Source: Streptomyces aquilus | GTDB lineage: Bacteria; Actinomycetota; Actinomycetes; Streptomycetales; Streptomycetaceae | Assembly: GCF_003955715.1 (NCBI RefSeq) | Contig: NZ_CP034463.1 | Span: 9,362,001 to 9,426,000, forward strand | Length of the DNA stretch: 64,000 nt | Reading direction: 5' to 3' | Part shown: piece by piece, positions 38,826 to 45,778 of the stretch | Position numbering within the stretch: the stretch's first letter is position 1 | Layout of the letters: each line of letters begins with the position of its first letter | Translations under genes and position numbers: made by a program | The notes under the pieces: generated by a model | What the model was told of the DNA's origin: nothing | What the model saw: only the letters and a program-made list of their open reading frames with translations | Database searches by the model: none

Positions 38826-40913
38826 TCAGGGCAGGAAGTCGGCGACGAGTGCGGCGAACTCGTCCGGCTCCGCCAGCCGGACGCCGAGGTCCTCGGCCTT
38901 GGCGCGCTTGGAGCCGGCGCCCTCACCGGCGACCACCAGGGTCGTCTTCTTGGAGACGCTGGAGGAGGAGCGGCCGCCCGCACGTTCGATGAGCTCGTTC
39001 ATCTGGTTGCGGGAGAGCTTCTCGAGAGCGCCGGACATCGAGCCGGTGACGACGACGGTCATCCCCGCCAGCGGCAGGTCCGCGGCCGCGGCGTCCTCGG
39101 GCGCTTCGGCAGGGTCGGCGTCCGCCGCGGGCGGCGGCGTCGCGCCGGGTTCGGTCATGTTGACCCCGACCGCGACGAGCTTGTCGATGAGCGGGGCCAG
39201 TTCGGCGAGTTCGGCGACGATGGACGGCGCCTTCTCCGTGCCGATGCCCTCCACCTGCTGCATCGCCTCGGCGTCGGCGGCCCGGATGTGGTCCATGGTC
39301 GCGAAGTGCCGGGCGATCCGCCGGGACATCGACCGGCCGGTGCCCCGCACCCCGAGCGCGCACAGCACCCGGGACAACGGCTGGCCCTTGGCCGCGGCCA
39401 GCGCGGCCAGCAGGTTGTCGGTGCTGGTCTCGCCCATCCGCTCCAGGGCCAGGAGCTGCTCACGGGTGAGGGTGAACAGATCGGCGAGATCGGCGACCAG
39501 ACCGGCGTCGACGAGCTGGACGACCCGGGTGTGTCCCAGGCCCTCGATGTCGAGCTGGTCGCGGCCCGCGGCGTAGGACAGGGAGGCGACCAGGTGGCAG
39601 TTGCGGCCGTTGGTGCAGCGCCAGCGCTGCTCGCTGGTGTCGATGTCCGACCCGCAGCGCGGGCACACCTCGGGGAAGACGATGGGCTGCTCGTCGCCGG
39701 TGCGCAGATGGGCGACGGGGGCTTCGACGCGGGGGATGACATCGCCGGCCCGATAGACCATGACGTGGTCGCCCAGGCGCAGGTCGCGCCGGGTGATGTC
39801 GGCCGGGTTGTGCAGGGTGGCGTAGGTGATGGTGGAGCCGTCGATCTCGACCGGTTCCAGGACCGCGCGCGGGGCGATGATGCCGGTGCGGCCCACGTTC
39901 CACTCCACCTCCAGCAGCCGCGTGATCTTCTCCACGGCCGGCAGCTTGTAGGCGATCGCCCACCGCGGGGCACGGCTGCCGGAACCGGCGGCCTGCTGGT
40001 CGGCGGCCAGGTCGGCCTTGATGACGACGCCGTCGATCCCGAACGGCAGCTCGGCGCGCAGCGCGGCGATCTCCTCGACCCGGGCCAGGACCTCCTCGAC
40101 GCCGTCGGCGGTGGTACCGGGCACGGCGGTCGACGCGGTGGTGTTCACCCCCCACGCGGCGGCCTGTGCCATCAGGTCGCTGTGCGCGCTCTCGCCGAGC
40201 CGGTCGGCGAGAGCGGTGTCGGTGCCGGGCAGCGGGAGCAGCCCGTAGCCGAAGAACGTCATCGGCACGGTGTAGGCACGGTCCTTGGCGCGCAGGGTGC
40301 CGGCCGCGGTGTTGCGCGGATTGGCGAACGGCTGACCGCCGTGCTGTGTGCGCACCTCGTTGGCGTGCTCGAACTGGGCCGTCGTCATCAGGACCTCGCC
40401 GCGGACCTCCACGGTGACCGGCTCGGACAGGGTGTCGGGCAGGCCCTCGATGGTGCCGATCGCATGGCTGACATCCTCCCCGGCCGTGCCGTCCCCGCGG
40501 GTGATCAGCTGTCTCAGACGGCCGTGGGTGTAGCGGGCGGCGATCGCCAGCCCGTCGAGCTTCGGCTCGCTGCTGAAACGGGTGACGTCATGGCCGATAC
40601 GGCGCGCCAGCGAGGCGGCCCAGGTGGTGAACTCCTCGGCGGAGAAGACGTTGTCGAGACTGAGCATCGGCACCGTGTGCGGGACGTCCCCCTCCACCGC
40701 GCCGCCGGCGACCTTGCCCGTGGGGGAGTCGGGGAGCACCTGCTCGGGGTGGGCGTCCTCCCACTGCGCGATGCCGCGCACCAGCCGGTCGTAGGTGTCG
40801 TCGTCCAGGGGTGAGGTGCCGCCCTCGTAGTAGGCGGCCGCGGCCTTCACCGCGTCCTCGACCGCCTGTGCGTAGGCGGCGGCATCCACGATCTGTGCAG
40901 CTGGTGTCGTCAT
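38826..40913 (-). CDS. ligA: NAD-dependent DNA ligase (likely accessory copy)
   Basis: A 695-residue NAD-ligase with all domains: NMN-binding Ia ([17 protein letters not shown]), adenylation domain with KLDG (catalytic Lys118), OB fold, Cys4 zinc finger ([23 protein letters not shown]), helix-hairpin-helix repeats and a C-terminal BRCT domain ([14 protein letters not shown]). The N-terminal region differs from the housekeeping actinobacterial enzyme as I remember it and matches a second ligase found in several Streptomyces. The neighbours are not replication genes. ATG 40913 chosen; ATG 40922 and 40946 are upstream in frame. Confidence 0.9.
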
Positions 40914-41006
40914 GCGGATCATCTTGCACGCCGCCACTGACAACACCCCGCCACCGGCCGGCGCGGGACGCGAGCGCCACGAGCCGGCCGGTGATCATGA
41001 CGACTG

Positions 41007-41882
41007 TCAGACGCGGTCGGCCGCGATCAGCACGTACTGGAAGGAACCGTCCCGGTACGACTCGATGAACGCCTCCTCGATCCCGGTGACCAGCGAGGAC
41101 GTCGCCCGCAGCTCCCAGTAGGGCAGGGTGTCCGGGGTCAGGTCGATCACGGTCTGCGGCACGAGCCGGTTGTCGGCCATGGCCCGCAGATACTCACGCC
41201 GCGAATGGATGTTGCACTCGAAGTGGGCGTTGATCTGGGAGACCCACTTCGACGGCTGGCCGTAGCGGGGGTTCCAGCAGCCGGTGATGGTCACGTACCG
41301 GCCGCCCACCTTCAGGAAGCGGGAGTGCTCGGCGAACAGGTCGTGCAGGTCGACGTACATGGTCGACTCGTTGTTCCACGACGCGGTGACGCTGCCCTTC
41401 TCGAAGGGGGTGTCGAGCATGTTGCACACCCGGGAGCGCACATGGCCTTGGATCCGCAGGTCCCGTGCCCGCCCGTTGCCGAACTCGGCCTGGGTGGCGG
41501 ACAGCGTGACGCCCTCGACCTTGCAGCCGAAGCGCTGGTGGGCCATGACCATGGAGCCGCCGCGTCCGCAGCCGGCGTCGACGAGGGTGTCGTCGGCGGT
41601 GACGGGGCCGAGGTGGTCGAGGAGGAACTCGGCCTGGGCGGACTCCAGTCGGTGCAGCTCGGCGATGAGCTTCTTCTCGTACTCGCTGTGTTCCGGGTCG
41701 CCGAGGGCTTCGTGGTTGACGGCGCCGATGCCGTAGTGGTGGTGGTAGAGCCCGTCCACGTCACCGAGGCGCAGGTTCACCGGCCTCGCCTCGTTGTTCC
41801 AGTACCGAGCGATGTCCCCCTGGTAGGGGGTCGCGGGGGCCGGGATCGTCGCAGAGACGGTGGGGGTGATTTCTGTGGTCAC
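41007..41882 (-). CDS. Geranyl diphosphate 2-C-methyltransferase
   Basis: A 291-residue SAM-dependent methyltransferase that adds a methyl group to C2 of geranyl diphosphate, the first committed step to 2-methylisoborneol. The SAM loop VDAGCGRGGSM is at residues 101-111; YHHHYGIG and WNNESTMYVDL are family-specific. GTG start 14 bases after the cyclase stop, so cotranscribed and probably coupled. Cytosolic; its product feeds the cyclase, which is likely inside the encapsulin shell. Confidence 0.93.
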   Translation of the reverse strand: MTTEITPTVSATIPAPATPYQGDIARYWNNEARPVNLRLGDVDGLYHHHYGIGAVNHEALGDPEHSEYEKKLIAELHRLESAQAEFLLDHLGPVTADDTLVDAGCGRGGSMVMAHQRFGCKVEGVTLSATQAEFGNGRARDLRIQGHVRSRVCNMLDTPFEKGSVTASWNNESTMYVDLHDLFAEHSRFLKVGGRYVTITGCWNPRYGQPSKWVSQINAHFECNIHSRREYLRAMADNRLVPQTVIDLTPDTLPYWELRATSSLVTGIEEAFIESYRDGSFQYVLIAADRV

Positions 41883-41896
41883 TGAGTGTCCGTTCC

Positions 41897-43366
41897 TTAC
41901 CAGAAAGCGGGCAGGCTGTAGCGGAAGGTGTTGGTGCGATGCCAGTCGTGGTTGCCGTCGACCCAGGTGGCCACGCCCTTGAGGAAGCGCACCACGGGGG
42001 GCAGCGGGCAGGCCGCGGCCAGTTCGGCCGCCGCCGCCTCGAAGGCGTGCATGAGGTCGTTGTGGACCTCGACCGCCTTGAGATAGGCGTCGCGCTCCGA
42101 GAGCTTCTCCCGTTCGGCGATCACGACGGGCAGGTTCAGGTGCCGGCCGGGGCCGGCGAGTTCCTTGGTGTACGAGTACAGGTCGTTGACGATCGTGGTC
42201 GCGTTGCCGGCCAGGGCGATGACGCGCTGCATCTCCGGCCGGGCGTGCAGGTCGGCTGGTAGCTCGTAGCCTCCGATGGTGTCGGTGATGGTGGGGCAGG
42301 GGCGGAAGTTGTTGAACTGGCGCATGGCCAGGTACTCCCACACCTCCGGGACATGATCGGTCTCGGCCCAGGCGGCCTCGGCCAGGTAACCCAGGTGCAG
42401 CCGGGCCATGTCGTGGCGGTAGCGGTCGACCTGGGAGGGCGAGGCCATGGCGGTGAAGTAGTCCATGGCACTGCGATAGGCGCGCCGCGGCGGGTCCGAG
42501 CCGAGCGACTCCAGCCAGGCCGGCGCGTACTCCGGGGTGGTGTGGAGCGGGTCGAGCGCGGTGTGGGCCAGCAGGAGACGGCCGCCGAGGCCGACGGGTG
42601 AGCCGCCGTGGTCCTCGCAGTAGCAGTCGTCCACCGCGTTCTCCGCGACCATCAGCCGGGTGGCGATCATGAGGTGGTCGACCGTGGGGGCGTCGGGATG
42701 GCAGCCGACCATGTACCGGCCGACCGAGAAGCCGTCGAACTGCCCCTCCCACTCCTCGGGATAGAGCTGGACCTCGTCCTCGGCCCAGCGCTTGATCCGC
42801 CGGCTCACCTCCTCGACGCGCAGCGGGTCGGGTTCCGGGATCGGGTGGTGGTAGAGGCCGGGTACGGCCTGTCCTTCGGCGGGTGGCGCGGGGGCCGGGG
42901 GCGCCGGGACGGATTCCGGCGGCGGCCGATGCGCGGTGCGGGCGAGGGACAGCGAGGCCGTGCCCAGGCCGGTGGGTCCGCCCAGGACCCGCTCGACCCC
43001 CGACGCGGACTCGGGTACGGCCTCCGGAGCAGCCTCCGGCAGGGGTGGAGCGGCCGATTCCGCGACGGCGACCGGCGGTGACGGAGCCGTACCGGTTGAA
43101 CTGCCCGCCAGTGACAGCGAGTTGGTGCCCAGGCCGGTGGGCCCGCCCAGGACCCGCTGAAAGACGGGTTCGGCAGGCGTGGCGGGCGGCGTGCCGGTGA
43201 CCGGCGGCGGGGGAGCGGTCGTCGGATGCAGTACGGCCTCAAGTCCGAAGGCAGCCGCGGTGATCGGAAGACCGGGGACGGCCGGCGTGGGTACCTCCGG
43301 CGCGGCGCCGGAAGGCAGCGACCGCTGCCCGGGGATGGACGGTCCAGGGGGCCCGGATTCGGGCAT
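41897..43366 (-). CDS. 2-Methylisoborneol synthase (encapsulin cargo)
   Basis: A 489-residue class I terpene cyclase that converts 2-methyl-geranyl diphosphate to 2-methylisoborneol. The catalytic domain (about 185-489) has the Asp-rich motif DDCYCED (246-252) and the NSE triad NDLYSYTKE (393-401). The first 180 residues are Pro/Ala-rich and disordered, and contain a 17-residue motif twice: RVLGGPTGLGTNSLSLA (71-87) and the copy with TASLSLA (126-142). In family 2 encapsulin systems such extended N-termini direct cargo into the shell. It lies 54 bases after the shell gene. Confidence 0.95.
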   Translation of the reverse strand: MPESGPPGPSIPGQRSLPSGAAPEVPTPAVPGLPITAAAFGLEAVLHPTTAPPPPVTGTPPATPAEPVFQRVLGGPTGLGTNSLSLAGSSTGTAPSPPVAVAESAAPPLPEAAPEAVPESASGVERVLGGPTGLGTASLSLARTAHRPPPESVPAPPAPAPPAEGQAVPGLYHHPIPEPDPLRVEEVSRRIKRWAEDEVQLYPEEWEGQFDGFSVGRYMVGCHPDAPTVDHLMIATRLMVAENAVDDCYCEDHGGSPVGLGGRLLLAHTALDPLHTTPEYAPAWLESLGSDPPRRAYRSAMDYFTAMASPSQVDRYRHDMARLHLGYLAEAAWAETDHVPEVWEYLAMRQFNNFRPCPTITDTIGGYELPADLHARPEMQRVIALAGNATTIVNDLYSYTKELAGPGRHLNLPVVIAEREKLSERDAYLKAVEVHNDLMHAFEAAAAELAAACPLPPVVRFLKGVATWVDGNHDWHRTNTFRYSLPAFW

Positions 43367-43420
43367 CCACTACTCCTTGTCGTGGTGTCGGGGACGGGCT
43401 CGTACAGCGCGCCGGGGGCG

Positions 43421-44836
43421 TCAGTCGCGACCGCGGGCGATCTGCACGTTCTCCATGACGCCGAGCGCGTCGGGCACGAGCACCGCGGCGGAGTAGTACG
43501 TGCTGACGAGATAGGACATGACCGCCTGCTCGTTGATGCCCATGAAGCGCGCCGAGAGCCCCGGCTCGACCTCGTCCGGCAGTCCGGTCTGCCACAGGCC
43601 GATGACCCCTTGGTTCTTCTCGCCGGTGCGCAGGGCGATGATGGAGCTGGTCTGCTCCTTGCTGATCGGGATCTTGTTGCAGGGCAGGATCGGAACCCCG
43701 CGCCAGGCCGGCACGGACTGTCCGCCGACATCGACGTGGTCCGGGTAGAGCCCGTAGGCGTTGAAGCCGCGGCCGATGGCGGCGATCGTCCTGGGATGGG
43801 CGAGGAAGAACTTGGTGCCGCGACGGCGGCAGAGCAGATCGTCCATGTCGTCCGGGGTGGGCGGACCGGAGTGGGTCTGGATGCGCTGCTTGAAGTCGGC
43901 GTTGTGGAGCAGTCCGAACTCACGGTTGTTGATGAGCTCGTGTTCCTGGCGCTCACGCAACGCCTCGATGGTCAGCCGGAGTTGCTCCTCGGTCTGGTTC
44001 ATCGGCCCGTTGTAGAGGTCGGCCACCCGGGTGTGGATTCTCAGGACGGTCTGCGCGACGGAGAGTTCGTACTCCCGGGGCTGCAACTCGTAGTCCACGA
44101 AGGTGTTCGGCACGTCGACCTCGCCGACATGACCGGCCGACAGGGCGATCTCGGCCTCGCCGTGTTTGTTCTGCGGTCGCCGGGTGCCGGAGTCGAACTC
44201 GGCGACATGGGCCTGGAGACCGGGAGCGGAGTCCCGTACGGCGGCGAAGTCGGCGCGGGACAGGGTGAGGAGGGTGCCGGAGGTCTCGGCGGTGGCCGTG
44301 CAGTCGTGGCGGGCGTCCGCGTCGAGGAGGGCGTTCTCACCGAAGTGGGCACCGTCGGCGAGGACCCCGAGGGCGATCTCCCCGCCGTACTGGCCCTCAC
44401 CGGACTGGCTGATCCGCCCGTGGGCGATCAGATGGATGCGGTCGGCCGGGCTGCCGCGCGAGACGATGACCTCGCCGGCGACGAAGTCGCGCTGTGCGCA
44501 GCGGTCGGCGAGCGCGGTGAGGACGTCCAGGTCCTCGAAGCCCCGCAGCAGGGCCAGTTCACCGAGTTCACGGGGGATCACCCGGACCGCGGCCCCCTCC
44601 TGCACGAACTCGATGCGACCGTCGCCGACGGTATGGCGCAACCGGCGGTTGACCCGGTAGGCGCCGCCCTTGGTCTCGACCCAGGGGAGCATCCGCAGCA
44701 GCCAGCGGGAGGTGATCTCCTGCATCTGCGGGGCGGACTTCGTGGTGGTGGTGAGGTTGCGTGCGGCGGCGGTGCTCAGGGACTGCTGCGGCGCGGCTGG
44801 TGCGGCCTCGGTCTCCGGGCTGCTGTCCACGGTCAT
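43421..44836 (-). CDS. Family 2B encapsulin shell protein
   Basis: A 471-residue nanocompartment shell protein with an HK97 phage-like fold and an internal cyclic-nucleotide-binding domain (about residues 95-205; phosphate cassette [23 protein letters not shown]). The C-terminal half ([21 protein letters not shown] region to the end, with [32 protein letters not shown]) is the encapsulin signature, related to S. griseus EshA. It is the first gene of the 2-methylisoborneol operon and probably encloses the cyclase. ATG 44836. Whether it binds cAMP or another nucleotide cannot be told. Confidence 0.93.
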
Positions 44837-45262
44837 CGGGGTGGGCTGCTCCTTGCGTGGCCGGGCGGCCGGCGCACAGCTGTACGCCGGCCGGGAGTCG
44901 GGGAGTGTGCGGCAACGGGACGGGACGGCGGCGGTGATCCATCCACCCGCAGGACCGTAACGACCGGTTGCGCCGCATCGCCCGGAGAAGCCAGCTGCTT
45001 CCTTCGAAGCGGTGACAATCATTCGAATGCGGTTTATCGACCCAAGAGCGACATCGCGCCACTCTTTCCGGACCGCTACGCCCCCTACCGGCCTCCCACC
45101 AGGCCGAACGGCGCCCAGCGGCAACCGAGTCGTACATGATCAAGCCGCGAACCTCGCCGCTCTCACCCCTGTCCCGGTTTCACGGCCGGCACCGGGACGG
45201 GCATGGTCGCTGGTACGCGACCTCGTGGACGAGACGCAAGCCGGCAGGAAGGAAGACCAACC
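44837..45262. other. Divergent control region, encapsulin operon / Imm5-like gene
   Basis: This 426-base gap has no supported gene. It must contain promoters for both flanking genes. The most notable elements are the TTCGAA palindromes at 45002-45029. The rest shows no strong repeat. Confidence 0.5.
45002..45029. promoter_or_regulatory. Paired TTCGAA palindromes
   Basis: CTTCGAAG (45002-45009) and CATTCGAATG (45020-45029) share a TTCGAA core with 19-base spacing, in the gap between the encapsulin operon and the Imm5-like gene. A plausible operator for either side; its owner is unknown. Confidence 0.3.
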
Positions 45263-45778
45263 GTGATCCTCCCGAAGGTCAGGGACCCCCGCTTCGTGAC
45301 GCTCCGCCGCGGCGGCACCCTCACCGACGCCGATCACCATCTCCTCGCCCTCTGGGCGGCAGCCTGCGCGGAGCACGTCCTCCACCTCTTCGAGACGGCT
45401 CGGCCCGAGGACCCGCGTCCGCGTCAGGCCATCGAGCACGCCCGCGCCTGGACGCGCGGCGAGGTCAAGATGATGGAGGCCCGGGCGGCGGGCGGCCATG
45501 CCATGGGCGCCGCCCGCGACCTGCGGGGAGCGGCACGGCACGCCGCTTACGCCGCCGGCCAGGCCGCGGTCGTCGCCCACGTCGCCGCGCACGAACTCGG
45601 CGCGGCCGCCTACGCGATCAAAGCCGTACGTGCCGCCGCGCCGAAAGCCGAGAGCGAGGCGGCGGGACGACGCGAATGCCAGTGGCAGCGTGACCAGCTC
45701 CCGGAGACGATCCGCGAACTGGTCCTCGACGACCAGCGGTTGCGCAACGACATCTGCTGGTCCGTCTTCGACTGCTGA
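45263..45778 (+). CDS. Imm5-like putative immunity protein
   Basis: A 171-residue alpha-helical protein. LALWAAACAEHVLHLFE, then PRQAIEHARAWTRGEVKM and AVVAHVAAHELGAAAYAIKAV match the family annotated as putative immunity protein (Imm5-like), proposed by genome-context studies to neutralise polymorphic toxins. GTG 45263 follows GGAAGG. No toxin gene is adjacent. The family is common in Streptomyces as a stand-alone gene, so a different role is possible. Confidence 0.72.
   Translation: MILPKVRDPRFVTLRRGGTLTDADHHLLALWAAACAEHVLHLFETARPEDPRPRQAIEHARAWTRGEVKMMEARAAGGHAMGAARDLRGAARHAAYAAGQAAVVAHVAAHELGAAAYAIKAVRAAAPKAESEAAGRRECQWQRDQLPETIRELVLDDQRLRNDICWSVFDC

Follow-up and report, generated by a model that had tools for sequence, protein, structure and literature searches.

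2-Methylisoborneol is an earthy odorant that is made in two steps, in which a methyltransferase makes 2-methyl-geranyl diphosphate and a terpene cyclase converts it to 2-methylisoborneol. We analyzed a 64,000-nucleotide stretch of the Streptomyces aquilus chromosome (contig NZ_CP034463.1, positions 9,362,001 to 9,426,000; the whole stretch is called the window below). It carries genes for these two enzymes next to a gene for a family 2B encapsulin shell, and the cyclase, of the 2-methylisoborneol synthase (2-MIBS) type, bears a putative shell-targeting tag twice in its N-terminal region. Excerpts of PMC8346489 (Andreas and Giessen 2021) report that most 2-MIBS-like cargo shares a GPTGLGT consensus and that geosmin-synthase-like cargo has a repeated motif, GPTGLGTSAAR, and state that both motifs may be targeting sequences. 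A literature search for GPTGLGT returned only this paper, the excerpts of which mention no double tag in 2-MIBS. The system and the motif have been known since 2021; a 2-MIBS with two tags is new as a variant, though a modest one.

The locus resembled the described family 2B systems with 2-MIBS-like cargo in its shell family, cyclase, C-methyltransferase and GPTGLGT motif in a disordered N-terminus (PMC8346489, excerpts). Unlike the usual 2-MIBS-like cargo, the window cyclase carried the tag twice in full, in a longer form of 17 residues. In geosmin-synthase-like 2B cargo, GPTGLGTSAAR is likewise found twice per protein, between the two cyclase domains and at the C-terminus (PMC8346489, excerpts), whereas the window cyclase had both copies in the N-terminus and a single cyclase domain. 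A two-domain geosmin-synthase-like cyclase at about 7.934 Mb of the same genome (L221) carried a variant of the motif, GPTGAGTSAAD, between its domains. In family 2A, a largely disordered N-terminal region of the cysteine desulfurase cargo is reported to mediate loading, as it may here, but the enzyme is different and no specific targeting peptide was identified according to the excerpts (PMC8346489 and its reference 8); the family 2A shell, unlike that of the window, is without a cyclic-nucleotide (cNMP)-fold domain. Finally, a family of distant cyclases (e.g., L084-L089, L091 and L095) was similar to the window in the usual presence of an adjacent shell and methyltransferase and in a motif variant like LPTGPTGLGTSAAR, and differed in a catalytic domain only about 36-45% identical, a SLISRV start in many members and tandem-unit expansions in two. 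Our favored reading, which we consider probable, is that this is a family 2B 2-methylisoborneol operon in which the tag docks the cyclase and was duplicated once and kept, the extra copy serving avidity.

A Duplicated Tag in the Window Cyclase

The genes and the tag copies were located as follows (positions in the window).

43421..44836, minus strand: family 2B encapsulin shell gene, 471 amino acids, ATG at 44836
41897..43366, minus strand: 2-MIBS-type terpene cyclase gene, proposed cargo, 489 amino acids
42875..43366, minus strand: cyclase N-terminus (residues 1-164), rich in Pro and Ala and predicted to be disordered (AlphaFold confidence score, pLDDT, below 50; weak model)
43106..43156, minus strand: tag copy 1 (extra), RVLGGPTGLGTNSLSLA, cyclase residues 71-87
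42941..42991, minus strand: tag copy 2 (ancestral position), RVLGGPTGLGTASLSLA, cyclase residues 126-142
41007..41882, minus strand: geranyl diphosphate 2-C-methyltransferase gene, about 291 amino acids from a putative GTG start

A sequence-only reading of this DNA had placed RVLGGPTGLGT(N/A)SLSLA twice in the cyclase, at residues 71-87 and 126-142, separated by diverged linkers, and both statements were confirmed. The two 17-residue tags differed at one residue and were alike at the other 16. Between the copies, 11 codons were identical, 5 differed synonymously and 1 differed non-synonymously, while the flanks had almost no codons in common, so the likeness was confined to the motif. Both copies held an exact GPTGLGT and lay in a region where pLDDT was below 50 (residues 1-96 and 98-164), which fits disorder, in a model that was weak as a whole (mean 51.9). 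A tandem-repeat search found no array over the motif of the window cyclase, so the copies did not arise by a recent duplication.

A degenerate DNA pattern of the core had 3 matches in the 10.4 Mb genome. Two of these were the tag copies and the third was inside a 260-residue open frame. The reversed-pattern control also gave 3 matches, and thus the count by itself shows nothing; the unlikely part is that a single reading frame of a single gene held two matches at a distance of 165 bp. On shuffled N-termini the motif profile had a chance rate of 0.0003 per protein at the threshold used and 0.0024 at the loosest threshold tried. The case against chance rests on the two copies in one N-terminus and on these shuffled rates.

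The three genes followed each other on the minus strand in the order shell, cyclase and methyltransferase, with short intergenic gaps. The shell protein scored 754 bits against NF041163, "family 2B encapsulin" (cut-off 400), and 459 bits against the SrpI-like Pfam family PF19307, and it has the HK97-fold family 2 shell domain by both models. The nearest solved shell by sequence was PDB 9bhu/9bhv/9bi0 (813 bits), and similarity to 9bhu suggests that the window shell would assemble as an icosahedron. The cyclase scored 508 bits against NF041167, "family 2 encapsulin cargo protein terpene cyclase" (cut-off 400), which places it in the curated cargo family, and 104 bits against PF19086; its top PDB match was the 2-methylisoborneol synthase 3v1v. 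The C-methyltransferase expected beside 2-MIBS-like cargo was also present (NF041943, 481 bits, cut-off 400). The operon type proposed earlier, a shell with a terpene cyclase, was thus borne out and includes the methyltransferase, all three proteins scoring above the cut-offs of curated models.

Census of the Tag among Related Cyclases

The 190 cyclases of the census came from 78 of the 80 named loci, from 110 loci in the genus of the window and from 2 loci in other genera of the phylum. The named loci were the best 80 of at least 210 relatives and are therefore biased to similarity with the query. The genus loci comprised 30 returned by the search and 80 picked by hand among the matches listed (60 roughly by score, with some skipped, and 20 from the low end). 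They included the window's own gene (L109), and some proteins, such as L007 and L102, occurred in both sets. Two loci were left out before the profile census, namely L025, truncated by the end of its contig, and L044. The latter is a close relative (97% identical in the matched segment) whose two tags were in different frames through an assembly error or a broken gene. The motif profile was built from the very proteins that it then scanned.

Cyclases were grouped by the identity of their catalytic domain to that of the window. In the group with at least 75% identity (2-MIBS-type, n = 136), 0, 1 and 2 tags were found in 1, 126 and 9 proteins, respectively. The corresponding numbers were 17, 3 and 0 at 48-75% identity (n = 20) and 1, 26 and 7 below 48% (n = 34). 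With a looser pattern, 12 of the 34 proteins in the last group had two or more tags, at a shuffled rate of 0.006 per N-terminus. Of the 122 2-MIBS-type cyclases that adjoin a shell match, 121 had a tag by the profile. None of 23 terpene synthases below the cut-off in the phylum search had a tag in the one open frame per locus chosen by a script. The P, G, G and T of the core were invariant across the 126 one-tag 2-MIBS, which had been selected by the profile, and at the position of copy 2, P131, G133, G135 and T136 were invariant in 21 aligned sequences.

The tag-less cyclases with an adjacent shell were L200 and L202-L217; in most of those whose N-terminus was inspected, it was short and contained LPGPPN-like and GGAIPGL-like stretches. 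Cyclases of this 48-75% group may be loaded by another signal. Shell residues that might bind the tag were sought by comparing tag-type shells with the shells of the tag-less group. Twenty positions separated the two, and 19 of them were not also different in four polyprenyl-transferase shells; lineage alone could explain this pattern, and the positions were rejected as candidates.

Origin of the Second Copy

In a FastTree tree of catalytic domains with 143 rows, the two-tag 2-MIBS formed one clade of 8 rows (7 distinct; support 94) with L082 separate from it, and no member of the clade had lost a tag. The tree points to a single duplication in the window clade and an independent one in L082. 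Copy 2 aligned with the single tag of one-tag relatives, and thus copy 1 is the addition. The copies of L082 shared their flanks as well as the motif, so that this duplication looks more recent. Concerted evolution of the two copies was considered and dropped, since identity within genes (0.849) and across species (0.854) gave no sign of it.

Repeats had also expanded in the distant family. L095 and L091, both beside 2B shells, contained in-frame tandem units with the motif, of 102 bp (2.4 copies) and 111 bp (2.9 copies), respectively, and had four to seven degenerate GPTG-type tags per protein, depending on the pattern. Other distant cyclases (L084-L089, L092, L093 and L098, among others) shared, ahead of the tags, an N-terminal segment SLISRV, and AGLVRALL often came after it; the SLISRV segment is perhaps another loading element.

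Selection on the tags was examined by comparing synonymous and non-synonymous codon differences in tags and linkers between sister pairs, with small counts and neighboring codons that are not independent. In three sister pairs of the two-tag clade, both tags pooled had 16 synonymous and 7 non-synonymous differences versus 73 and 100 in the linkers (p = 0.015); by pair, the tag differences were 6/0, 6/2 and 4/5. Copy 1 alone had 11 and 2 (p = 0.0035 against the same linkers). In the 7 two-tag taxa, 14 of the 17 residues of copy 1 were invariant, and codons had changed at 12 of these 14. The added copy looks to have been preserved by selection, as judged from these codon counts.

Tags without an Adjacent Shell Gene

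Fourteen of the 136 2-MIBS-type proteins had no shell match in the flanking DNA examined. Among them, L054 and L186 lay at contig ends, and the flanks of L147, L160 and L164 covered about 3 kb on the upstream and 0.3 kb on the downstream side. The remaining 122 include L033, whose upstream shell match is partial and 37% identical. Shell adjacency changed at least 6 times on the tree when the two contig-end loci were removed and L033 was counted as being without a shell. Nine named loci without a local shell had DNA on both sides, and 8 of them, all but L035, kept a methyltransferase gene next to the cyclase.

At least 12 of the 14 genomes had some 2B shell over the cut-off (eight in one search and four in another, which together covered all but those of L022 and L054), and the cyclases may therefore load in trans. 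The 2B shells that passed the cut-off in the first eight genomes, as well as in the genome of L033, were all 43-65% identical to that of the window, while shells beside 2-MIBS in the other named loci were 68-95% identical. The comparisons suggest that the tag is not tied to its own neighboring shell and would either load in trans or have another role.

The presence or absence of a shell across the genus was of almost no use for testing the tag, because 289 of 295 genomes had a 2B shell that passed the cut-off. Among the other six, only G050 (82% complete, 1770 contigs) had a cyclase over the cut-off. The core of this cyclase, L168, was degraded to GPTGLGI, in support of a tag that serves the shell.

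The cNMP-Fold Domain and the Surroundings of the Operon

The shell protein contained one further feature.

44234..44491, minus strand: cNMP-binding-fold domain inside the shell protein (PF00027, 57 bits)

An internal domain of this fold is characteristic of family 2B. The canonical phosphate-binding cassette is defined by R-(A/S)-(A/T). The window domain lacked this cassette, departing from that of a kinase match, FGERALLYDEPRSAT. A study of the S. griseus 2-MIBS shell reportedly found loading via the 2-MIBS N-terminus and no cyclic AMP binding. Excerpts of PMC12407261 state, with a preprint of Andreas and Giessen as the source (reference 35 of that paper), that the insertion domain of family 2B fails to bind cyclic nucleotides; they add that its binding-site residues diverge. 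Control of the pore or of activity by a nucleotide, as suggested by the sequence-only reading, did not hold up against these excerpts and the divergent cassette.

A gene for an NAD-dependent DNA ligase (38826-40946) was immediately downstream of the operon, and a gene for an Imm5-like putative immunity protein (45203-45775) was upstream on the opposite strand. A promoter search gave no sigma-70 consensus match and is uninformative for such a genome. One other full-length match to the window shell was found in the same genome at about 6.973 Mb (L225), followed by a polyprenyl synthetase gene.

Discussion

The reading that we favor runs as follows. The window cyclase would be encapsulated and work inside the shell, and its flexible N-terminus would dock on the shell lumen via the GP(T/S)GLGT tag, a step that draws on published proposals and on conservation. 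In the window clade, one duplication upstream of the ancestral copy would have been followed by retention of both copies. The likeliest role of the extra copy would be avidity, with two shell sites per chain giving tighter or denser loading. One tag is probably enough to load, and two-site loading is plausible. One tag is the normal state (126 of the 136 2-MIBS-type cyclases), also in the S. griseus relative L071 (GPHGLGT), and the second tag is thus a refinement and not a requirement.

Several observations weigh against this reading. Seventeen of the 20 cyclases at 48-75% identity adjoin a 2B shell yet are without a tag. Copy 2 alone was not separable from the linker (6/5, p = 0.53), the tags of the sister pair L008-L099 had 4 synonymous and 5 non-synonymous differences, and 11 one-tag sister pairs with adjacent shells gave only a borderline result (29/23 vs. 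158/227, p = 0.052). The strict core, GP(T/S)G(L/P)GT, was intact in 14 of 14 cyclases without an adjacent shell gene compared with 107 of 122 with one. L018, L022 and L029 had broken shell pieces upstream and an intact tag. Three sister pairs without their own shell had 9 synonymous and 3 non-synonymous differences in the tags (4/0, 1/0 and 4/3 by pair) versus 37 and 66 in the linkers (p = 0.012). The earlier claim that the motif is conserved amid linker as two shell-binding elements accordingly stands in part: constraint on copy 1 and the targeting role proposed for the motif in excerpts of PMC8346489 agree with it, with no such signal from copy 2 taken alone. Conservation of the motif without the shell gene, which the sequence-only reading had named as counting against shell binding, was likewise found by half, in that the core is kept there at least as well, but most of those genomes still hold a 2B shell elsewhere.

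In the strongest alternative, the tag would work as a portable code for docking to family 2B shells at large rather than to its own shell only, and cyclases that lost their own shell would load in trans into other 2B shells. We regard this as possible, though somewhat short of an even chance. It agrees with the strict core kept in all 14 shell-less 2-MIBS and with distant cyclases that have the same core and adjoin 2B shells mostly 60-68% identical to that of the window. The nine genomes in which all 2B shells are at most about 65% identical (those of 8 of the 14 and of L033) fit it too. However, some shell losses may be recent, and the shells that are left may be there only for polyprenyl transferases or other cargo. 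A broader form, in which GP(T/S)GLGT is a portable and multivalent 2B docking code, copy number (from 1 to at least 5) tunes loading and decayed-shell cyclases load in trans, is rather unlikely as a whole.

A neutral origin, in which the Pro/Ala-rich and GC-rich linker expanded by repetition and left behind an extra copy of no benefit for loading, is improbable. Most 2-MIBS do have a single copy, tandem expansion in frame was recent in two distant relatives, and the duplication in L082 takes in its flanks. In the window clade, however, the likeness is limited to the motif, with the 5 synonymous codon differences seen here, and copy 1 was kept in 7 of 7 distinct taxa with an excess of synonymous changes over the linkers.

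Docking of the tag to a partner other than the shell, e.g., the methyltransferase, which would hand its methylated substrate to the cyclase, is less probable again. Tags do persist where there is no adjacent shell, and the methyltransferase stays at nearly all of the shell-less named loci, but the tag-less group also has an adjacent methyltransferase (partial matches in short downstream DNA). Geosmin-synthase-like enzymes are not known to need a methyltransferase. Geosmin-synthase-like cargo bears the motif (PMC8346489, excerpts), including the variant in L221 of the same genome. Gating of the shell through a cyclic nucleotide sensed by the cNMP-binding-fold domain is very improbable, since, although the fold is clearly there, the excerpts of PMC12407261 report no binding and diverged site residues, and the window domain aligns closely with those of the S. 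griseus locus L071 and the solved shell 9bhu.

The part most worth following is that the tag has been multiplied repeatedly and retained after decay of the shell gene. The family 2B loading signal was put forward on sequence grounds. Cargo with no, one, two or several tags, together with the orphans of decayed shells, forms a natural series that offers direct tests of tag function. The same series bears on valency and on the sharing of cargo between shells. The answers would help to explain terpenoid compartments and would aid the design of loadable shells.

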